Assembly: GCA_019638795.1 (NCBI GenBank)
Contig: JAHBTB010000006.1
Location: 124,001-188,000 of the forward strand
DNA length: 64,000 bases
Direction of reading: 5' to 3'
DNA from: Fimbriimonadaceae bacterium
GTDB taxonomy: Bacteria > Armatimonadota > Fimbriimonadia > Fimbriimonadales > Fimbriimonadaceae
Below the pieces are notes generated by a model. It saw nothing but the letters and a program-made list of their open reading frames with translations. It had not been told where the DNA came from and did not search any database. Both the position numbers and the translations under genes were made by a program. Shown piece by piece: positions 25,461 to 49,734 of the stretch. Position 1 is the first letter of the stretch; every line of letters starts with the position of its first letter.

Positions 25461-25503
25461 CGGGTCCGCAACCCCGCCGGGGTAGCAGGCATAATGGACG
25501 GGT

Positions 25504-26214
25504 ATGAAGGCACCGATCTTCGCTCTAGCAGGGTGCGTGGCCGCCGCATTTCTGTTCGGTTGCGCCGAGAAGCCCGAGCCCGCGGCATCCGGCGAGACCA
25601 CCAAGCAACCCGAGGCGACCAAACCCGCCGAAGCCCCGAAACCCACCGAGGAGGCGACCGGCAAGCTCCCGACCGAACCGAAGGACGGAGAGGACGTCGC
25701 CGTCATCGACACCGACAAGGGCAAGATCGTCTTCATGTTCTATCCGCAAAAGGCGCCAAAGCACGTGGAGAACTTCAAGGAGCTCGCCAACGCCAAGTTC
25801 TACGACGGCGTCAGGTTCCACCGGTGCATGCCCGGCTTCATGATCCAGACCGGTGACCCCCTGAGCAAGGACACCGGCAAGTACGACATGTGGGGCACCG
25901 GCGGGAACATGGTCGACGGCAAAGAGAAGTTTGTGCCCGCCGAGTTCACCGACATCCACCACGCCCGCGGCATCGTGAGCATGGCCCGCGCGAACGACCC
26001 GAACTCGGCGAGCAGCCAGTTCTTCATCGTCACCGACAACGCTCCGACCCTTGACGGAAAGTACTCGGCGTTCGGATGGGTGGTCTCGGGCATGGACGTC
26101 GCCGACGCCATCGTCAAGACGGGGCCCTCCGACCCGAACGAGAACGGCAAGGTCAAGAAGGACGACGCGGTCACGGTCAAGTCAATCAGGATTGAGAAAT
26201 GGCCGGTCAAGTGA
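25504..26214 (+). CDS. Lipoprotein cyclophilin-type peptidyl-prolyl isomerase
   Basis: Extracytoplasmic prolyl isomerase. The lipobox ends FLFGC (C20), followed by a Glu/Pro/Thr-rich linker to about residue 60. The cyclophilin domain follows: VENFKELANAKFYDGVRFHRCMPGFMIQTGDP, GIVSMARANDPNSASSQFFI and YSAFGWVVSGMDVAD, including the catalytic FHR arginine and the SQFFI core. 236 aa. It overlaps the second cyclophilin by 16 nt and is very similar to it, so the two arose by tandem duplication. Confidence 0.94.
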   Translation: MKAPIFALAGCVAAAFLFGCAEKPEPAASGETTKQPEATKPAEAPKPTEEATGKLPTEPKDGEDVAVIDTDKGKIVFMFYPQKAPKHVENFKELANAKFYDGVRFHRCMPGFMIQTGDPLSKDTGKYDMWGTGGNMVDGKEKFVPAEFTDIHHARGIVSMARANDPNSASSQFFIVTDNAPTLDGKYSAFGWVVSGMDVADAIVKTGPSDPNENGKVKKDDAVTVKSIRIEKWPVK

Positions 26215-39715: not shown

Positions 39716-40425
39716 TCGACAAAGGTGACGAACCCCCAGTGCTCGGGGAGGTGCATGTCGATGATGCCTTGGGGAGACCAGACCCAGTTGTCCTCGCGCA
39801 TATCGGGCTTCTTCACATACTTGCCGTCGACGATGTCGACCTGCCACTCGACACGGCTGAAATTGACGCGCCATGTGTCTCCACCATGTGGTGGAGTTGG
39901 CATGCCGCTCTGTTCCCGAAAGCAGTGCCAAGGAAAGGCGATCTCGACCCGCCAACCGGTGTCAATGTCGGTCGGGTTGTTGATGGTTCCGGCCACGTGG
40001 ACGGCCGAGGAGGCGTAAGACTCCCAACTGTTGTCGGCGCTGCCGCCGTTGCGGTATGTTTTGTCCAAATACAGGTCCCACGTCGTGTTCAGGGCGTTGA
40101 CCTCAAACTCAAAGTACCGCGCCCCGTCGCCGTCGGGGTCGATGAAGACCTCAAAGTCGTTGTCGTGGAAGATCACCGAGTCATGCAGGGTGAGGGTGCC
40201 CCAAACGTGGGGCTCTTCCATGGTCGCGGCGATGTAAAAGTAGTTGTCGTCCCATAACATCTTCGCCTGGGTGTGGAACCGGGGCAAGGGCTTCTTGTCA
40301 CCCTCGATGTCGACGAACGCGTCAGTCCATGCGGCCGCCGCCCAGGCGGGGTCGTCGATGCGACCGTTGACCTCGACTGGCTTGTAGGCCCGCCGGCACT
40401 CATATCGTTTGGGTGGTGTCAACAT
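39712..40425 (-). CDS. CBM9-like carbohydrate-binding protein
   Basis: Beta-sandwich of the carbohydrate-binding family 9/DOMON-like type: VEVNGRIDDPAWAAAAWTDAF at the N-terminus, MLWDDNYFYIAATMEEPHVW, FHDNDFEVFIDPDGDGARYF, and a C-terminal TWRVNFSRVEWQ are typical. 237 aa, no signal peptide, so probably cytoplasmic or exported by an unrecognised route. The start lies inside the end of the CtlX-like gene (7-nt overlap). It is last in the 49.7-39.7 kb unit. The ligand is unknown. Confidence 0.85.
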   Translation of the reverse strand: MLTPPKRYECRRAYKPVEVNGRIDDPAWAAAAWTDAFVDIEGDKKPLPRFHTQAKMLWDDNYFYIAATMEEPHVWGTLTLHDSVIFHDNDFEVFIDPDGDGARYFEFEVNALNTTWDLYLDKTYRNGGSADNSWESYASSAVHVAGTINNPTDIDTGWRVEIAFPWHCFREQSGMPTPPHGGDTWRVNFSRVEWQVDIVDGKYVKKPDMREDNWVWSPQGIIDMHLPEHWGFVTFVD

Positions 40426-41324
40426 CGCTCCTCTAAGAATATCTCACAAACCATGCACCGGATTCCGCCGCCGCCTTGCGACCAAATGGTGGGGAGTGGC
40501 GCACCGACCACGCGGGTGAAGAACGGCGAAAGTCGGCGACGCAAGGCGGCGTCGGCTTTGGGTGGTAGGGACCAGGAGCCGACAAGCATAGGCCCGTCAG
40601 ACCCTCTCACTTCAAGCACGTTGCCGCAAAACGCCCGGGCCTCTTGGTCGGATATCTCGACGATCTCGTGGCCGGTTTGCCTCAGTTGACTGGCCACACG
40701 CTCTCGGTCTGCTGGCTCAAGCCAGTCGGCGCATATGACGGCGCAATCTGTGCCGACCGACAGGCACACGTTGGTGTGATAGACCGCGACTCCGTCGCAA
40801 TTGGCTCGGAAGGGAACGAGTTCGTATTCCAACTCTCGGCACCATTCTCGGGCGACGCCGATGTCGGCACGCGAGCTCTCGCACATGTAGGCGAGACGGT
40901 TCACGCGGTCCAGGACCAGGCTGCCCGTGCCCTCTAGGGCGCGGCCTTCGTCCTCGTGACGGGTCAAATCGACCACACGGTTGACGGCAAAGGAAGAGTT
41001 TAGCCGGTCGATGATGTCCTCGCGCCGCTCGCGACGTCGGATCTGACTCAGCATAGGATAGACGACAACCGTGCCGTCCTCATGGGTTGTCAACCAATTG
41101 TTGGGAAAGACGGCGTCCGGCTTGACTGGAGTGGCGGTGTCGTCGACGACCACAAGCTTGACTCCGGCAGATTCAAGCTCTGCGACAGCGGCGTCGAACT
41201 CGGCGAGAGCATTGCTTGCTTTGCCGTTCTGGGTTTGGAATACGTTACTCGCGGCGGTCTCCGCGTTCCAACCGAACGAGGCCGGTCGGACCATGAGGAG
41301 CGTGTCAGTAGATTGACGAACCAT
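40419..41324 (-). CDS. CtlX-like arginine deiminase/amidinotransferase family hydrolase
   Basis: Guanidino-group-modifying enzyme fold. Landmarks: KPDAVFPNNWLTTHEDG (Asp/Asn), LEGTGSLVLDR, AVYHTNVCLSVG (catalytic His) and the nucleophile cysteine near the C-terminus in GGGIRCMVCEIF. This pattern matches the citrulline-utilisation hydrolase CtlX and dimethylargininase-like proteins. 301 aa. It sits 12 nt after a glycosyltransferase and overlaps the CBM9-like gene, a context unlike arginine catabolism. The substrate is uncertain. Confidence 0.88.
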   Translation of the reverse strand: MVRQSTDTLLMVRPASFGWNAETAASNVFQTQNGKASNALAEFDAAVAELESAGVKLVVVDDTATPVKPDAVFPNNWLTTHEDGTVVVYPMLSQIRRRERREDIIDRLNSSFAVNRVVDLTRHEDEGRALEGTGSLVLDRVNRLAYMCESSRADIGVAREWCRELEYELVPFRANCDGVAVYHTNVCLSVGTDCAVICADWLEPADRERVASQLRQTGHEIVEISDQEARAFCGNVLEVRGSDGPMLVGSWSLPPKADAALRRRLSPFFTRVVGAPLPTIWSQGGGGIRCMVCEIFLEERC

Positions 41325-41336
41325 AAGGTAAACGAA

Positions 41337-42455
41337 TTAACGGAGAAGCTCGCAGTAGCAGGACTCGTAGTCGGAGACCCACCGGTCGTAGGTGAAGCGC
41401 TCGGTGTTCTTGGTGCCGGCGGCGACCCATTCGTCGCGGTTTTGGAGGCGGGCAAGGACGGCCGGCACACCCGACTCCACATCAGCGGGGTCGACAAGGA
41501 CGGCGCTGTCTCCGGCGACTTCGCGCATTGGTTCCCGGTCGGACGTCACGACCGGGCACCCGCATGACTGGGCCTCGATGATCGGCAGGCCAAAGCCCTC
41601 GATGAACGATGGGAACAGAAGGGCGACGGCCCCGGAGTAGAGGGCCTCAACGGACTCCTTGGGCACCATGGAAAGGACGTGGACGTGCTGGTCCAGGCCC
41701 ATCTCGGCGATAACGGCCGCCGCGTCATCGTCAAGGTACTTGCTAAGAATGACAAGGCGAAGGTCGCCCAGACTTGGAGAACTTCGCAGGGCGCCGAATA
41801 TTTTGACAACCCCAGATTGGTTCTTGTATGGGCCCATTCCAATGTGGAAGACGTAGGGTGCCTCGGGTGGCACGCCATGGGACGTCAGGACGGCCTTAGT
41901 TTCCGTCGGCGTCCGCCGCACAAAGGTGCCGATCATCCCGTTCAGGATCTTACGGTGGTACTTTTTGTTTGGGACGAGGTTGTCGAGATCGATCCTCGTC
42001 TGCTCGCTGATCGAGACAAAGTTTGAGCACGCCCGCAGGCCGGACAAGATCATTTCCTGGAGCCGGTGGCCCGACTTCCCGATCTGCCAGGTGTCCAACT
42101 CGCCGAGGGCGACCCTGATGGCGAGAAGGTCGTGGATCGTGTACAGGTGGTTGAACTTGCTGACGACGGGGCCATAGAAGCCGTTCCCTTGGTCGATGAC
42201 GTGGACGAGGTCGTATTGGGAAGCGGTCTGGGCCAATTGTCGCGGGAACAAGACCATCTTGTCGATGTAGCCCGCCCACTTCGCCAGGCGGCCTAGCGGC
42301 CTTCGGTTGACCCGGGCCGTCGGGCGGACGACGTCGGCAGGCCACCCACGGTCGACGAGGCCGGCATGCAAGCCCTTTAGGTAGCCCTGCATGCTGAACT
42401 GGTGGTCGGGCTCGTAGTTACCGACCAAGAGGACCCGGTGTTTGGTGGTGCTCAC
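41337..42455 (-). CDS. Glycosyltransferase family 4
   Basis: A retaining GT-B transferase. The N-terminal domain shows NYEPDHQFSMQGYLKGLHAGL and DLVHVIDQGNGFYGP; the nucleotide-sugar side has YVFHIGMGPYKNQSGVVKIF, LLFPSFIEGFGLPIIEAQSCG (the E-x7-E type motif) and VVTSDREPMREVAGDSAVLV. 372 aa. The start overlaps the ftsK stop by 4 nt, so a glycosyltransferase is translationally coupled to a chromosome translocase. The acceptor is unknown; envelope glycan is likely. Confidence 0.9.
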   Translation of the reverse strand: MSTTKHRVLLVGNYEPDHQFSMQGYLKGLHAGLVDRGWPADVVRPTARVNRRPLGRLAKWAGYIDKMVLFPRQLAQTASQYDLVHVIDQGNGFYGPVVSKFNHLYTIHDLLAIRVALGELDTWQIGKSGHRLQEMILSGLRACSNFVSISEQTRIDLDNLVPNKKYHRKILNGMIGTFVRRTPTETKAVLTSHGVPPEAPYVFHIGMGPYKNQSGVVKIFGALRSSPSLGDLRLVILSKYLDDDAAAVIAEMGLDQHVHVLSMVPKESVEALYSGAVALLFPSFIEGFGLPIIEAQSCGCPVVTSDREPMREVAGDSAVLVDPADVESGVPAVLARLQNRDEWVAAGTKNTERFTYDRWVSDYESCYCELLR

Positions 42456-44695
42456 GCGTCAGGGTCTCCCGACCCTTCTCCCATTTCGGTCAGATAGGCG
42501 GTGTTCCCCAACAGCAGTTCTGCCCGTACTGGGTCGACCAAGACCTGGCGGGGCCGTGGTCCGTCGCGTTGTCCGACCACACCGCGCTCCTCCATCATGT
42601 CGAGCAACCGGCTCGCCCGTTGGAACCCGATCGAGAACTTACGTTGAATCATGGAGGTGGAGGCCTCGCCGCGCTCGACGACAAAGCGCACCGCCTGGGC
42701 CCAGAGGGGGTCGTCCTCTTGTTCGCGCATCTCGGCCTCCTTTTCCTCGATGACGATCTGGACCGGGTTCAACACGTAGTGGGGCTTTTCTTGCGCCCGC
42801 CAGAAGTCGCAGACGTCCTCGATCTCCTTTTCACTGACATAACACCCCTGGACACGGGTCGCTTTGGTGGCGTCGATGGGGAGGAAGAGCATGTCGCCCT
42901 TACCGATCAGCTTTTCTGCGCCAGCCTGGTCGAGGATGGTGCGCGAGTCGATCTGCGAGGACACGGCGAAGGCGATCCGCGACGAGATGTTGTTTTTGAT
43001 CGTGCCGGTGATGACGTCGACGCTCGGCCGCTGGGTGGCGATGACCAGGTGGATCCCGGTGGCGCGGGCCAGCTGGGCCAAGCGGCAGATGCTCGTCTCG
43101 ACCTCCGCGGCGGCCTGGATCATGAGGTCGGCCAACTCGTCGACGATCACGACGATGTAGCTGAGCTTTTCGTCGGGTCCAAACTTTGCGTTCCAACCGT
43201 CGATGTTGCGGACACCGGCCTCGCTGAACCGCTCGTAGCGGCGGTCCATCTCGCGCACGACCGCGCGGAGTACCCCCGGCGCTTCCTTGACGTCCTTCAC
43301 CACCGGGCACATCAAGTGGGGTAGCCCCTCGAAGAATGTCATCTCGACCCGTTTGGGGTCGATCATCACGAGGCGCAACTCCCGGGGGGAGAGGCGCAAG
43401 ATCAGGCTCATGATGATGGTGCCGAGGCAGATCGACTTGCCGCTGTTGGTCGCCCCACCGACGAGCAAGTGGGGCATCTTGGTCAGGTCGGTGTACTTGT
43501 GGGTGCCGCTGACGTCCTTGCCCAGGGCCACGGTCAGGCGGCTATTCTGGTCGTGGAACTCCAGGGTGTCCACCATTTCCCGGAGGGTCACCATCACCCG
43601 CTGGGCGTTCGGAACCTCGACACCGATGGCGCTTTTGCCCGGGATCGGGGCCTCCACGCGGACATGGCTTGCCGCCAAACCCATCGCGATGTTGTCGGCC
43701 AGAGCGGTGATCCGGTTGACCCGGATGCCGGGGCCCAGTTGGACCTCGTAGCGCGTGATCGTCGGGCCGTGGGCGACCTCGACGACGTTGGCCTCGATGT
43801 TGAACTGCTCCAGGGTGTCTTCCAGCACCTCGATGTTGCGCTGGATCTCCTTGGGGTCGCGCTTTGACTTGCCGCCGGGCTCGACGAGAAGACTCAGCGG
43901 CGGCAATTGGTAGCCGTCCCGGGGGGCGGGTGGATCAACCGCCAACTCGACCTGCTTGGTCGGCTCAGGGTCTTGGCGGAGTCCGTGCCGGCGGAGGGGT
44001 TTCTCTTCCGGGGCCTCCGGCTGTTCGGCGACCGACCCCTCCAGCATACGGACGGTGGCCCGTCGACGCGCCTCCTTCTGGTCTTCGTCGGGGAGGGCCT
44101 TCCTTTCGGGGTCAACGGCGGGCTTGGCGCGCAACTTGTCGATCGGCTTGCGTGCGGTGGCGGCCGCCCGGGCGACGAGCTCCCTGACCGGGTCCTCGAT
44201 GCAGAGCAACGCCCCGACAAGGAGCAAGACGGTGTTGCCGACCCAGTGGGCCGGGCCGAGCAGCGTGTGCATGGCCCATGCCGCGGAGCCACCGAGGTAG
44301 CCGCCTCCAGTCGCGAGGGCCTCAGGGTCGAAGAAGTCGCCGTTTGTGTCGCGGGCAAAGAAGGCGAGCAGGCCAAGGAAGACGAGGAGGGTGCCCCAGA
44401 AGACGCGCTGGTACTGGAACGCGGCCCGGCCCATGACCAAGCACCCCCCAGCGAAGCCGAGGACAAACGGCACGGCCCACGCGCCTTGCCCGAAAAAGGT
44501 CCGGAACGCACCGGTCACCGAGTCACCGACCAAGCCGCCGCGTCCCAAGACGAGGGTGACCAAGACGACGAGCCCGACGGCGACAAGCCCGATCCCGACG
44601 AACTCGGCACGACGATGGGTGGCGATGTTCGGCTTCCGCCGAGTCGCCGAGACATCGACGACCGCCTTGCGGCTCTTCAGCCCTTCCGTGGGCAT
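42452..44695 (-). CDS. ftsK: DNA translocase FtsK/SpoIIIE
   Basis: Septum-located DNA pump that clears chromosome ends at division. The N-terminal part (about 25-180) has about four membrane segments. A charged linker follows, then the motor: Walker A GGATNSGKS near residue 412, DPKRVEMTF, and Walker B VVIVDELADLM near 517, with ATQRPSVDVITGTIKNNISS. A gamma winged helix at the C-terminus (SMIQRKFSIGFQRASRLLD) would read KOPS-like sequences. 747 aa, the SpoIIIE size class. 24 nt after the RodA/FtsW gene. Confidence 0.96.
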   Translation of the reverse strand: MPTEGLKSRKAVVDVSATRRKPNIATHRRAEFVGIGLVAVGLVVLVTLVLGRGGLVGDSVTGAFRTFFGQGAWAVPFVLGFAGGCLVMGRAAFQYQRVFWGTLLVFLGLLAFFARDTNGDFFDPEALATGGGYLGGSAAWAMHTLLGPAHWVGNTVLLLVGALLCIEDPVRELVARAAATARKPIDKLRAKPAVDPERKALPDEDQKEARRRATVRMLEGSVAEQPEAPEEKPLRRHGLRQDPEPTKQVELAVDPPAPRDGYQLPPLSLLVEPGGKSKRDPKEIQRNIEVLEDTLEQFNIEANVVEVAHGPTITRYEVQLGPGIRVNRITALADNIAMGLAASHVRVEAPIPGKSAIGVEVPNAQRVMVTLREMVDTLEFHDQNSRLTVALGKDVSGTHKYTDLTKMPHLLVGGATNSGKSICLGTIIMSLILRLSPRELRLVMIDPKRVEMTFFEGLPHLMCPVVKDVKEAPGVLRAVVREMDRRYERFSEAGVRNIDGWNAKFGPDEKLSYIVVIVDELADLMIQAAAEVETSICRLAQLARATGIHLVIATQRPSVDVITGTIKNNISSRIAFAVSSQIDSRTILDQAGAEKLIGKGDMLFLPIDATKATRVQGCYVSEKEIEDVCDFWRAQEKPHYVLNPVQIVIEEKEAEMREQEDDPLWAQAVRFVVERGEASTSMIQRKFSIGFQRASRLLDMMEERGVVGQRDGPRPRQVLVDPVRAELLLGNTAYLTEMGEGSGDPDA

Positions 44696-44719: not shown

Positions 44720-45826
44720 TCAATGAAGCTGGTCGACGAGCCCGACGGACGCCATGCACGTCAGCAAGGCGGTCCCGCCGTTGCTGACAAAGGGGAGCCA
44801 GAGGCCGATGACCGGGCCGATGTTGAGGACCATCGCCAAGTTGACGACGGTGTGAAAGGCCAGGAAAGCGAGGAGACCCCCGGCGACGAGCCGCCCCATC
44901 GGCTCGCGGCACCGGAAGCCGGTGTCCCATAACCGATAGAAAAAGACCATGAAAACGCCTAAAACCACAACAGAACCGATGAGGCCCATCTCTTCGCCAA
45001 TGACGGAGAAGACAAAGTCGTTGTGCTGTTCAGGAATGTAGCGCCCCGCCTTTTGCTCGCCGCGGAGGTAACCGGTGCCGGTCACACCGCCCATTGCGAT
45101 CGCCTTGACCGACTGGGCCGCCTGCCAGCCCTTTCCCTGGGTGTCACTGGTACCTCGGAGGATCTTGCCAAAGAACTCGTCCAGTTTGCCTTTGTGGTAG
45201 TCGCTGAACGAGCCGCTGACCATCGCGACACCCAGCAGGGCGAGGACGCAGGCGATCGAGGCGCCGATATGTTGCCAAGGAACCCCTGCATAGAGCGCGA
45301 CGGCCAACCAGATGACCAACATGCAGGCCGCCCCGCCGTAGTGAGGTTGCAACATCAGCAGGACGACAAGCGGCGCGACGTGAAGGAACGAAAGGAAGAA
45401 CGTCTTGAGAGACTTCACCTCGTCCTGGCGGGCGGCGAAGAAGGTGGACAGAGTCAGGACCAGGAGGACTTTGGACAAGTCTCCTGGCTGAAACTGTATT
45501 GAACCGACCTCGATCCACCGCTGGGCGCCCTTTGCGGAGTGGCCTCCGGCAAGGACGGCGGCGAGGAGCAGGATGTTCAGGACATAGAGCCCCTTGGACG
45601 ACCACTGCCAAAACGACAACGGGATTCGGCGGAAGAGGTACCAGACGGCCACCCCCAACGCAGCGAAGACGCCCTGCCGGGCCGCGTTGTGAAATCCGGT
45701 CGCTTGGTCGATGCTGTGGATCGCGAGGATTCCGACGATGGTGAGGACTGCCGCCGACCCGACCAACCAGGGGTCGGCGAACCGACTCGGCTCCCGGCGG
45801 GTGATCGTGCCAAAGTCGGCCTGCAC
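44720..45826 (-). CDS. SEDS peptidoglycan glycosyltransferase (RodA/FtsW family)
   Basis: Polymerises lipid II in the membrane with a partner PBP. Family landmarks: SAKGAQRWIEVGSIQFQPGDLSK, PEQHNDFVFSVIGEEMGLIG (with the conserved Asp), and the C-terminal IGLWLPFVSNGGTALLTCMA. About ten membrane helices, 368 aa. The usual QPDLGTA loop is QPHYGGA here, a small deviation. RodA is slightly favoured over FtsW by length and spacing, but mreBCD, pbp and ftsZ genes are absent. 5 nt after the last small exported protein gene. Confidence 0.9.
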   Translation of the reverse strand: MQADFGTITRREPSRFADPWLVGSAAVLTIVGILAIHSIDQATGFHNAARQGVFAALGVAVWYLFRRIPLSFWQWSSKGLYVLNILLLAAVLAGGHSAKGAQRWIEVGSIQFQPGDLSKVLLVLTLSTFFAARQDEVKSLKTFFLSFLHVAPLVVLLMLQPHYGGAACMLVIWLAVALYAGVPWQHIGASIACVLALLGVAMVSGSFSDYHKGKLDEFFGKILRGTSDTQGKGWQAAQSVKAIAMGGVTGTGYLRGEQKAGRYIPEQHNDFVFSVIGEEMGLIGSVVVLGVFMVFFYRLWDTGFRCREPMGRLVAGGLLAFLAFHTVVNLAMVLNIGPVIGLWLPFVSNGGTALLTCMASVGLVDQLH

Positions 45827-45831
45827 GGGGT

Positions 45832-46509
45832 TCAGCCCTCCGTGGGCTTGTCGCTCACGGCCCGTGGCTCACGGGTGGAGTTCAAGCCAAACTCGCGCTT
45901 CACGATCCCCTTGCCTGGGTCGAACCAGAAGCGCAGGCGACGCTTGGACTTCTCGGGTGCCCCACCGTCGAAGCTCAACTGGACCTCCACCAGGTAGGTG
46001 TTAAAGTGGCCCGCGGTGATGTTCAGCTCTTCGCGCTTGGCTTTGATCTCGGCCTCGGCGGGATACGAGCCGTCGCCCATGCGGATCTTGCCGCTCCAAG
46101 TCCAGGGAGAATCGCTCTGGAGGGGGTAGTGCACCAGCGGCAACGGGGGGTCGTACTTCTCGGCCTCTGTGCCGACAAAGCGGAACCCAGACTTGTCGTA
46201 GGTGTAGGTCTCCGTGCTCGTGGTCTCACCGTCGACCATGAGTTTGAGGGTGACGGTGTCGCCGGTGTCTTCGGTCTTGACGTCCACGGGGACGACGGAC
46301 CCCTGGTAGATCAAGTTGCCTTTGGCAAACGAGGTCGCCTGGGGCTTCATCGTGTCGGCGGTCTGGGCGAGGGTCTCCACTTGCCCGGGAGCGCTGTTTT
46401 CCTCCGCCTTGGCTTTGGCGTTGTTGTACATCACGCACCCCGCCGTGATCACGACGGCGCAGGATGCGGTGACGAGGGCAGCGGCGGCTTTTCCCATGAC
46501 GATGCTCAT
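45832..46509 (-). CDS. Small lipoprotein of unknown function, array member 4
   Basis: No named family. N-terminal lipobox VVITAGC (Cys near 25). The body is beta-rich: IYQGSVVPVDVKTEDTGDTV, TETYTYDKSGFRFVG, then FNTYLVEVQLSF and the motif FWFDPGKGIVKREFG. Similar 'variable strand, then W/F-x-P-G-x-G-x-V-K' elements occur in the two genes upstream. 225 aa. It overlaps the upstream gene by 4 nt and is 5 nt before the RodA/FtsW gene. Confidence 0.8.
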   Translation of the reverse strand: MSIVMGKAAAALVTASCAVVITAGCVMYNNAKAKAEENSAPGQVETLAQTADTMKPQATSFAKGNLIYQGSVVPVDVKTEDTGDTVTLKLMVDGETTSTETYTYDKSGFRFVGTEAEKYDPPLPLVHYPLQSDSPWTWSGKIRMGDGSYPAEAEIKAKREELNITAGHFNTYLVEVQLSFDGGAPEKSKRRLRFWFDPGKGIVKREFGLNSTREPRAVSDKPTEG

Positions 46510-47150
46510 GCGTTTGTGTCGCCCATTGATACGAGCGTTCTCTTACTCGAATACTTCTCTTTGTTGACCGTCGTCGTCTGCTCCATCTCGACTAGGCCGA
46601 TTCCCTTGCCATAGACCGACCTTTGGACGGATTTGATGGGGGGCTCGCCGGCCGCGCCGTAGATGACGTCGAGGGTCACCTCGACGCAGTCCACGTCCTT
46701 ACCCAAGACCTTTCGCTTACCAATTGGCCGAGACGTGCCCTTCAGGACCATGTCGGCCACCGTCTTCATAAACTCCGTCTTACCGGCGAACTCCCAGGTG
46801 GTCCGCTTGTCATCGACCTTGAGCACCGGGTACTGGTACGTCGTGGCCTCGCGGACGACTTGGTCGTCGACTTCCTTCTTGATGTAACTCTTGAAGATGA
46901 CGAAGACGGTGTCGCCCTCCACCAAGTAAAAGGTGGGTTCGCTGGTCCGTCCATGCGAGACGGTCGTGAACGGCGCGACTTCTTTGTCAAGGAGTTTGGT
47001 CGGTTTGCCGACCTTGTCGGTGAAGACTTCCTGAGACCGCCCTGTCTTCTCGCTGTACGTCCACGTCGTCCCGGGGACAGTGGGGAAGTATGCCGCAGCA
47101 TCGCCGGCCACCAGCAAGGTGGACATCAGCGGAAGAAGGGCGGCCAGCAT
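46506..47150 (-). CDS. Small exported protein of unknown function, array member 3
   Basis: No named family. A signal peptide (MLAALLPLMSTLLVAGDAAA) without a clear lipobox. The body starts with YFPTVPGTTWTYSEK, an instance of the 'P..(x)G..W.Y' pattern, followed by VDCVEVTLDVIYG and SVYGKGIGLVEMEQTT, aligned with the 'G.G.V' motif of the neighbours. 214 aa. 7 nt after member 2 and overlapping member 4 by 4 nt, indicating coordinated translation. Confidence 0.8.
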   Translation of the reverse strand: MLAALLPLMSTLLVAGDAAAYFPTVPGTTWTYSEKTGRSQEVFTDKVGKPTKLLDKEVAPFTTVSHGRTSEPTFYLVEGDTVFVIFKSYIKKEVDDQVVREATTYQYPVLKVDDKRTTWEFAGKTEFMKTVADMVLKGTSRPIGKRKVLGKDVDCVEVTLDVIYGAAGEPPIKSVQRSVYGKGIGLVEMEQTTTVNKEKYSSKRTLVSMGDTNA

Positions 47151-47157
47151 CGGAGAC

Positions 47158-47886
47158 TTATCCCTGGGAGGTCAACTCGATCGTGCTCGTCCGGTCGCCG
47201 TCCTTGTCCTTGATGTTCAGGACCATTTTCACGACCCCGTAGCCGGGGGCGTACCAACTGGTGCCGTTGACACCGATCTTCTGGTCCTTGGTCAGGTTGC
47301 CGGTCGTTGTCGCGACGAAACAATCAAACTCGCCACCGGCCACCTTGATCTTTTCCTTGCGGACGACCTTGTTGGTCATGTCGATCTTGATGTCCTTGCC
47401 GTCCATGCCCTTCACGGTCTCGTGGCTCGGCCACGAGACGTCCACGGCGAGTTTGGCGGGCAGCGCCAGCATCGGCGGGTCGATCGTCGTGGCGGCGGCG
47501 AAGGTGGAGTAGACGCCGTCCGGTTTCAGGATGACTTCGTCGTCGCCAAGGATCGAAAGGTCACCGTCACGCTTGATCGTGAAGGTGGGGTTGCCGTCAT
47601 GCAGCCCCTTGTAGACCACCGACTGGGTGCCGGTCTTCTCGCCCAAGTTTGGCTGTTGGGTGAGTTTATAGGTCAGCGTCTTCTTGCAGTCCAAGCCGTA
47701 GTAGGTGTAGCCGTCGGTCTTCAGGTTCGCTGCGATGTCTTCGACCTTAGGGGTGGACGCGGGTGCTTCCGTCGCCGCGGTGGTCGCCGGCTTGTTGGTT
47801 TCCGGGTTCGGCGTGTTCGTGGCCGGCGGCTGGCAGCCGACCAAGCCGAACACCGCCAAAGACAGGGGGATCAGGCATTTGTTCAT
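47158..47886 (-). CDS. Small lipoprotein of unknown function, array member 2
   Basis: No named family. Lipobox GLVGC (C18), then a Thr/Pro/Glu linker to about residue 48. The body contains KKTLTYKLTQ, GGEFDCFVATTTG and WYAPGYGVVKMVLNIKD, the clearest form of the shared C-terminal motif. 242 aa. The gene lies 7 nt after member 1 and 7 nt before member 3. The recurring 'deposit strand, conserved W/Y-P-G-x-G' layout suggests all four are diverged copies of one domain. Confidence 0.82.
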   Translation of the reverse strand: MNKCLIPLSLAVFGLVGCQPPATNTPNPETNKPATTAATEAPASTPKVEDIAANLKTDGYTYYGLDCKKTLTYKLTQQPNLGEKTGTQSVVYKGLHDGNPTFTIKRDGDLSILGDDEVILKPDGVYSTFAAATTIDPPMLALPAKLAVDVSWPSHETVKGMDGKDIKIDMTNKVVRKEKIKVAGGEFDCFVATTTGNLTKDQKIGVNGTSWYAPGYGVVKMVLNIKDKDGDRTSTIELTSQG

Positions 47887-47893
47887 GGATCGA

Positions 47894-48604
47894 TCACTTA
47901 GCAGTATGACTCTTCAGGCGGAAGATTTCCTTTCCGTTGAAGTCCTTCGTCGAGGTCTGTTGGACAAACCGGGCGAGGCCGACCTTGGGGACAAACCAGA
48001 GGGTCGCGCTCGTCACGAAGTCTTGGCCCTTGTAGCTGAACTTTGTGTTGGATTCGACGGTGACCGCCTCCATGGGGCCCTCTTCCGTGTCGATCCGTTC
48101 GGTCCCGCGGCACTTGTTCTGCACCTTCTGGTCGACAACGTCGGCACCGGTGGTCGGGGCCGGGCCCTTGAGGTCTTGGTTGAACGTCTCACCGTCTTTG
48201 ACGGGGAACTTGCACAGCATCTGCGGCGGGGTGTACGCCGCTCTACGGTCGGTGCTGTTGATCTGATAGATACCGGACTTGTCGACTCTCCAGTCGCTGC
48301 TGTCCAGGTGTTTGGAGCCCTCCAGGATTTCCAGCGTCGCAATGGTCGCGTCACCCTCCTTGCGGCTCGCCGTGACCTTGAACGTCAGCTCTCGGGTGGC
48401 CGACCCGCCGTTCTGGGTGGATTGGACTTCGTAGACCCACTCGTTGCCGACGGACAACGGCCAGAGCTCGGCTTCGTTCCCGGGTGTCACCGTCATGTTC
48501 TTGACCTCGGGCGGCTTCTCGGGGACGTAGCCTCCGCCTCCTTGGGAGCATCCTCCCAGGGCGACGGCGGCGATGGCAATGAAGGGCAGACGGCGGTTGA
48601 TCAT
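47894..48604 (-). CDS. Small lipoprotein of unknown function, array member 1
   Basis: No named family. Lipobox ALGGC (C19) and a short linker, then AELWPLSVGNEWVYEVQ, the best copy of the shared N-terminal motif, followed by beta strands, MEAVTVESNTKFSY and TLWFVPKVGLARFVQQTS. 236 aa. The start overlaps the stop of the SecD-head-like gene by 4 nt. The 'yPLxxGN.W.Y' motif also occurs in DUF3108-like lipoproteins, a distant resemblance only. Confidence 0.82.
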   Translation of the reverse strand: MINRRLPFIAIAAVALGGCSQGGGGYVPEKPPEVKNMTVTPGNEAELWPLSVGNEWVYEVQSTQNGGSATRELTFKVTASRKEGDATIATLEILEGSKHLDSSDWRVDKSGIYQINSTDRRAAYTPPQMLCKFPVKDGETFNQDLKGPAPTTGADVVDQKVQNKCRGTERIDTEEGPMEAVTVESNTKFSYKGQDFVTSATLWFVPKVGLARFVQQTSTKDFNGKEIFRLKSHTAK

Positions 48605-49734
48605 GTTTTCTTGGTGTTCGGCAGGGAGTTGATGAAGTCGGCGGCTTCCTTCGCCAGGCTTTCATTGGGAAGCTGTTTGATGGTGATTTCGTTGGACGAG
48701 AGTTCCGTGTTGATCTTCGGCGCGGCGAGCGGTATCCCGTTGACGACGAACATCAGGTGGAACGCCTGGTGGCCATGACTGTACTTCCACAGGCGCATCC
48801 GGCCGTCGTCGGTCAGTTGGATAGTGAGGTCGGCGAAGGTTTTGCCGTCGTTGCTTTGGTAGGTGCGCACCGTGGCACCTTTCACCTGCTGGTCGTTGAG
48901 CAGCACCTTGGAAATCTTCAGGAGTTCCTGGGGCTTTTCCGCCCACGTCGCCGTCCGGGAGGCGCCGATCTTGGTGGCCAGGGCTTTGGCGACGTCCTCC
49001 CGAGGCGTCCGCTTTTCCATAAGCCCGATCGCGGCGTCCCGGTACCAGGCCGTGATCATCTCCGGCGGTGGGTTGAACTTCTCGTTGATGCGCTTCTGGA
49101 TGTCGGTGGCGAACTTGCTCATGTACGCCTCCTGGACCATCGCGGTCAACTCGGACTCTTTCCCTTCGAGCGGGACCCTCACCTTCACCGGGATGTCGAG
49201 GACGATGCCGTTGAGCAAGGTGCGTAGCCGCAAGGTGTCGGGCGGCGTCCCGTCGAGGCCGATGTGAAGGTCGCTCTCCAGGCGCTGGCGAAGGGCGGCG
49301 TCGCCCTTCAGGGCCTTGTCGATGTCCGCGGCCTTCCATTCGACCCTGGTGGCGGGCAAGTCGTCCTCGCGCAGGTCGTTCATCGCCATGACGAGGTAGC
49401 CGAGGTCCTTTTCGTCGCCGCGCAGAGAACCGAGAAACTCTTTGATGGGGATCCGGTGCAGCCCGCTGGCGTCCGATTCCATCGAACTCGACTTACCGGT
49501 GCCGTGATTGGTCACCTCGGCCAACTGGGCGACCTCGTTGGCCACGATGATCTTGTACCGGGAGCCCCCTTCAATGCCGACCAACGTGACGCTTCCCGGG
49601 GTGATCGGCGTCGGGTTGTACCCGTTGACCTGGACGTCGCCCCAAGCGCGCCACCCGTAATACACTCCTGCCGACAACAGGAGCGCCATGGTGACCACCT
49701 TCAACGAGGCCCGGGTCGAGGCATTGAGCTTCAT
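48601..49734 (-). CDS. Single-span membrane protein with a SecD-head-like C-terminal domain
   Basis: No confident family. One N-terminal membrane segment (VVTMALLLSAGVYYGW) is followed by about 350 extracytoplasmic residues. The last 85 (SNDGKTFADLTIQLTDDGRM, FVVNGIPLAAPKINTELSSN, EITIKQLPNESLAKEAADFI) resemble the first periplasmic head domain of SecD, with its 'v.dG.v.saP.i...i' and terminal helix, as judged by eye. The middle has NGIVLDIPVKVRV and RINEKFNPPPEMITAWYRDA. 377 aa. It lies downstream of the ABC exporter and overlaps the first lipoprotein gene by 4 nt. A periplasmic binding or chaperone role is inferred. Confidence 0.7.
   Translation of the reverse strand: MKLNASTRASLKVVTMALLLSAGVYYGWRAWGDVQVNGYNPTPITPGSVTLVGIEGGSRYKIIVANEVAQLAEVTNHGTGKSSSMESDASGLHRIPIKEFLGSLRGDEKDLGYLVMAMNDLREDDLPATRVEWKAADIDKALKGDAALRQRLESDLHIGLDGTPPDTLRLRTLLNGIVLDIPVKVRVPLEGKESELTAMVQEAYMSKFATDIQKRINEKFNPPPEMITAWYRDAAIGLMEKRTPREDVAKALATKIGASRTATWAEKPQELLKISKVLLNDQQVKGATVRTYQSNDGKTFADLTIQLTDDGRMRLWKYSHGHQAFHLMFVVNGIPLAAPKINTELSSNEITIKQLPNESLAKEAADFINSLPNTKKT

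Follow-up and report, generated by a model that had tools for sequence, protein, structure and literature searches.

A tandem set of DUF3108-like exported proteins with a SecDF-P1-like partner, encoded beside RodA in Fimbriimonadaceae

What might four small exported proteins do when their genes stand in a row between a SecD-head-like protein and a SEDS polymerase? In the 64,000-nucleotide stretch of a Fimbriimonadaceae genome analysed here (the window), the genes run on the minus strand in the order ABC exporter permease, S (the SecD-head-like protein), D, C, B, A, RodA, and FtsK. S and D overlap by 4 nt, as do B and A, while D and C are separated by 7 nt, C and B by 7 nt, and A and RodA by 5 nt. 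The original prediction of four adjacent exported-protein genes was correct in all coordinates, sizes, and junctions. The 4-nt overlaps and 5–7 nt gaps suggest that the genes from S to RodA are translationally coupled. A search for sigma-70 promoters found three (0.9 ± 1.1 expected), with none before S on its strand. Comparison of the window with a congener indicates purifying selection on all genes of the locus (dN/dS 0.16–0.27 at dS > 1), including RodA (0.16).

Homology, export signals, and fold of the four array proteins

The array encodes exported proteins of 225 aa (A, 45832..46509), 214 aa (B, 46506..47150), 242 aa (C, 47158..47886), and 236 aa (D, 47894..48604), all on the minus strand. 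Orthologues were gathered from Fimbriimonadaceae loci mapped in larger regions, with open reading frames in relatives called from stop to stop, and those of A, B, C, and D were aligned separately after removal of the signal regions. When these alignments were compared with hhalign, the mature regions of all four proved mutually homologous, with probabilities of 94–99% and E values of 1.7e-7 to 1.6e-15; for A, B, and D against C, mature-region comparison gave E values of 1e-10 to 1e-14. Reversed sequences gave E ≥0.057, and five unrelated control families of the same loci (S, ABC ATPase, MoxR, PPIase, and GT) gave E ≥0.0035. This bears out the earlier proposal that a single domain had been duplicated repeatedly.

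Lipoboxes, scored with a simple pattern instead of a trained predictor, are found in 39/40 orthologues of C, 40/41 of D, and 28/39 of A, but in 0/24 of B, so that B appears to be exported but unlipidated. At least three of the proteins had been proposed to carry lipoboxes, which holds for C, D, and, in most orthologues, A, but not for B. Of two sequence motifs noticed by eye, the C-terminal W/F-x-P-x-x-G-x-V/A is kept in all four orthologue sets, whereas the N-terminal P..xG..W.Y is conserved in B and D and not in A and C.

The C-terminal motif is a signature of DUF3108-like proteins: a common WY-x-P-x-x-G-x-V motif occurs in DUF3108_like (PF21347), in DUF3108 (PF11306), and in the solved proteins 4fvs (YEWYSPNVGLVR) and 3fzx, both of which are reached through it by the C and D profiles. 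The four proteins had been described as having no named family. Comparison of the four with one another and with Pfam, as had been advised, shows this to be wrong for C, which exceeds the PF21347 gathering cut-off (36 vs 27 bits), while D scores 18 bits, under the 27-bit cut-off, and the Pfam scan gave no PF21347 match for A or B. By that cut-off, C is a member and A, B, and D fall below it.

Structure models cover D and S. The D model (pLDDT 91) is all beta, and its top PDB matches are 3fzx and 4fvs (Foldseek E 9.5e-8 and 8.4e-7, TM 0.53–0.58), followed by YmcC/GfcB (2in5; E 2e-4, with a weak TM of 0.33–0.41). DUF3108 proteins have the YmcC fold (PMC4364669), which places the domain in the known DUF3108-like/YmcC-GfcB fold family. 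YmcC/GfcB, encoded in the E. coli group 4 capsule operon, is like the array a beta-fold exported lipoprotein specified by overlapping genes in an envelope operon; GfcB forms homodimers and has a KD near 100 nM for GfcC (PMC8592465). The likeness is one of fold only, since Pfam scans of A–D gave no match to the GfcB/YjbF family, and no gfcC-, gfcD-, or etk/etp-like genes were found among the scanned neighbours (ABC exporter, RodA, FtsK, MoxR, PPIase, and GT).

Two further features of the window were noted. A weak array-like match at 25495-26211 is a cyclophilin and was discarded, and a dimethylarginine dimethylaminohydrolase-like protein (DDAH_eukar, 263 bits) is encoded at 40419-41324.

The SecDF-P1-like protein S and its insert

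S (48601..49734, minus strand, 377 aa) had been called SecD-head-like, and its AlphaFold model (pLDDT 90.4) agrees, with one N-terminal helix (residues 5-38) and a periplasmic body that matches nothing in the PDB significantly except SecDF P1; the top eight Foldseek matches are all SecDF. S is therefore a single-pass, stand-alone SecDF-P1-like protein. Its profile scores are low, with a Pfam SecDF_P1_head match below threshold and 15 bits against the TIGR01129 SecD equivalog-domain model (cut-off 244). S resembles SecD P1 in having the P1 fold with base and head, but unlike SecDF it has a single N-terminal helix, no RND membrane domain, and an extra insert of ~155 residues. A role as the organism's SecD can be ruled out, because a complete SecDF fusion (327 bits) is encoded on another contig (G000:C4).

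The fold of S nonetheless raises the idea that S and the lipoproteins help to release or mature proteins leaving SecYEG, whether linked to RodA or not, and PPIase genes recur nearby. Against this stand the complete SecDF fusion elsewhere in the genome, the missing RND transmembrane part, and the occurrence of S among unrelated genes outside the array-bearing families, and we regard such an export-helper function as very improbable.

The insert (residues ~112-266, 48937..49401, minus strand) lies between the N-terminal part of S and the head, and a profile of it identifies it in every complete array-bearing S (families f1, f2, and f4) and in 0/27 array-less S proteins; two f1 fragments at contig ends were left unscored. 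The P1-head-like C-terminal part (residues ~268-372, 48619..48933, minus strand) is also conserved in several further families of the phylum, where S relatives are mostly shorter proteins beside unrelated genes. Because the insert tracks the presence of the array, it is likely to be a dock for the array proteins, although the array-bearing families appear to group together and the correlation thus amounts to few independent events, about one gain and one joint loss.

Conservation of the locus and its link to RodA

The set of S, array, and RodA is retained by nearly every sequenced member of Fimbriimonadaceae. In each of the 51 family loci examined, which come from ~30 genera, an uninterrupted run of genes on one strand leads from S through two to four array genes to RodA. 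Counted at the S-RodA locus, there are four array genes in 26 loci, three in 17, and two in eight, but never one; B is missing from 18/51. The two-gene arrays retain varying pairs (DC/CD, DA, or CB). At least two paralogues are thus always kept, yet the pair differs, and partly interchangeable subunits would be expected from such a pattern. In a tree of the array proteins, all A sequences form one clade (support 100), as do all C sequences (99), with B and D nearly so. Each of these clades includes sequences of a sister family (f2), so the duplications predate the split of these families, and a recent local duplication of the array is ruled out.

S and the array are intact in two sister families, but there the array is followed by MoxR, PPIase, GT, or carboxypeptidase genes. 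In f2 the order is S-D-C-B-A and RodA does not adjoin it, lying 3.7 kb downstream in one genome. An array beside SEDS genes in relatives is accordingly the rule within the family (51/51 loci) and does not extend to its sisters. Since these keep S and the array without an adjacent RodA, S and the array are the unit to which RodA joined later, probably in a single event.

Across 84,980 species genomes scanned, S was found only in loci titled Armatimonadota or unnamed bacteria, plus one archaeon-titled contig (L091, Methanoregulaceae archaeon SJ84). The latter carries a complete bacterial ABC-S-D-C-B-A-RodA locus and is probably a mislabelled or contaminated metagenome-assembled genome. Outside the array-bearing families, the neighbours of S are MqnA, HisA, or aminotransferase genes, which rules out the S-array-RodA set as a phylum-wide unit. 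The window's genus includes one genome (G044, Armatimonadetes bacterium SZAS-4) in which the whole locus occurs twice in divergent form, each time with a RodA of its own (L036 and L194; D-C-B-A on contig C46 and C-B-A on contig C64), which may reflect duplication, transfer, or a mixed assembly.

DUF3108-like proteins also occur in multiples elsewhere in the phylum. Tandem gene pairs lie away from S and RodA (L268:9289-10963 and L270:8103-9472), one of them near Lgt (prolipoprotein diacylglyceryl transferase) and a UvrD helicase, and a 946-aa protein (L271:8621-11458) resembles a fused array, its single chain having at least two DUF3108_like domains. These pairs and the fusion, being away from RodA, rule out DUF3108 arrays as RodA-specific.

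Beyond the core, flanking genes vary among family loci, with the ABC exporter, MoxR, FtsK, and glycosyltransferase present, absent, or inverted. In the window the flanks are the FtsK/SpoIIIE DNA translocase (42452..44695), a frequent downstream neighbour, and the ABC exporter permease (PF16962; 49802..51496), a frequent upstream one outside the invariant core, both on the minus strand. The exporter precedes S in most family loci, is missing there in several, and is mostly not beside S in f2.

The exporter is pertinent to the reading of the YmcC-fold proteins as LolA/LolB-like carriers that would be loaded by S and the ABC exporter and would take a hydrophobic component across the periplasm. 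D weakly matches LolB, LolA-like proteins, and nitrobindin barrels in Foldseek, and GfcB has been reported to be similar to LolA (PMC8592465), but the LolA-type matches of D fall short of significance (E about 0.01 or worse) and the exporter is often absent from beside S, as in most of f2. The genome (G000) encodes a BamA-type Omp85 and has no match to LolA (PF03548) anywhere, array included, nor do its relatives have one above cut-off, so an unrecognised carrier may sort lipoproteins here. Array-less genomes, however, also have no LolA match, and there is therefore no pattern to support the array as a LolA replacement; on balance a carrier relay seems unlikely.

The polymerase itself (44720..45826, minus strand; PF01098, 264 bits), predicted as a RodA/FtsW protein, is the genome's only RodA: a two-clade tree of SEDS proteins, of which the genome has two, groups the array-linked one with RodA and the other, encoded on contig C1, with FtsW. 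Against TIGR02210 it scores 285 bits, under the 336.7-bit cut-off, while three RodAs from the same order that are unlinked or array-less score 306 and 313, also below it, and 364, which passes. Its (H/Q)x-D-F motif reads HNDF, and the Asp, the catalytic residue in E. coli RodA, is kept in all aligned sequences. The loop before this Asp is GTG, GVG, or GSG in most array-linked RodAs and GKG in some array-less relatives; E. coli-type RodA has GKG.

RodA has known accessory factors (PBP2, MreC, and RagB of B. subtilis) that are likewise encoded or act next to it (PMC12457691). In the present genome PBP2 and MreC are encoded on other contigs, unlike the array. Each of the 17 genomes tested encodes MreC and PBP-dimer proteins at other sites, which rules out the array as a stand-in for missing elongasome parts.

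Two related 1.5-Mb genomes (G059 and G060), nested in Fimbriimonadaceae by the RodA tree, have no S and no array, though RodA, FtsW, MreC, and PBP2 are present; this genus of reduced genomes has lost S and the array together, as would fit parts of one complex, and kept RodA. The module is therefore not required for RodA as such.

S and the array might thus form a complex with no functional relation to RodA, the transcript being shared because both are needed in growth and the gene order being ancestral. The genus that retains RodA without the module fits this account, as do the restriction of RodA adjacency to one family, probably by a single event, and the other genes that follow the array in sister families. 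RodA, however, adjoins the array in 51/51 loci while other neighbours have been lost repeatedly, and the spacing in the window is of a few nucleotides. We consider hitch-hiking of this kind possible but doubtful.

A candidate envelope complex made with RodA

The explanation we favour, though with only an even chance in our judgement, is that S and A–D form one S-anchored heteromeric complex of YmcC-fold proteins that serves growth of the envelope and is made with RodA. S would sit in the inner membrane with its SecD-P1-like domain in the periplasm and the extra domain as a dock for the array. C, D, and usually A would be lipid-anchored and B free in the periplasm, all with the DUF3108-like/YmcC beta fold, and they would assemble at least as a pair, much as E. 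coli GfcB dimerises either with itself or with GfcC. The analysis shows the homology and fold class of the proteins, their export signals, the contiguity and ancient duplication of the genes, and the co-occurrence of insert and array; from these we infer that the proteins assemble physically, that they dock on the insert, and that their function is coupled to RodA.

In Fimbriimonadaceae, S and the array genes would have been fused into the rodA transcript, so that the complex is made in step with RodA and might work at or close to the elongation machinery of RodA. A link this tight, unbroken throughout one family, suggests that the complex is produced, and perhaps also acts, in time with elongation of the cell wall. 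The earlier proposal that the module regulates or scaffolds SEDS activity describes a possible role, one that would not be indispensable given the genus that lost the module and kept RodA; as the link to RodA probably has a single origin and RodA in that genus does without the module, direct regulation of RodA is a tentative reading. A more specific version, in which S docks the YmcC-fold lipoproteins through its insert as an elongasome-coupled periplasmic relay that ties wall synthesis by RodA to the supply of an envelope component at the outer membrane, strikes us as rather improbable.

As an undescribed envelope module, the locus is conserved and, in the DUF3108 literature found, no such combination of tandem genes, SecD-P1-like anchor, and RodA is described, but its fold family was already known. 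DUF3108-like/YmcC-fold lipoproteins are known from crystal structures, without an assigned function. An ancient and always multi-copy set of them that has a membrane partner of its own and a constant position beside RodA offers a testable context for that function, and in this little-studied, BamA-carrying phylum the module is a candidate for an added, lineage-specific control of the main polymerase of cell-wall elongation.
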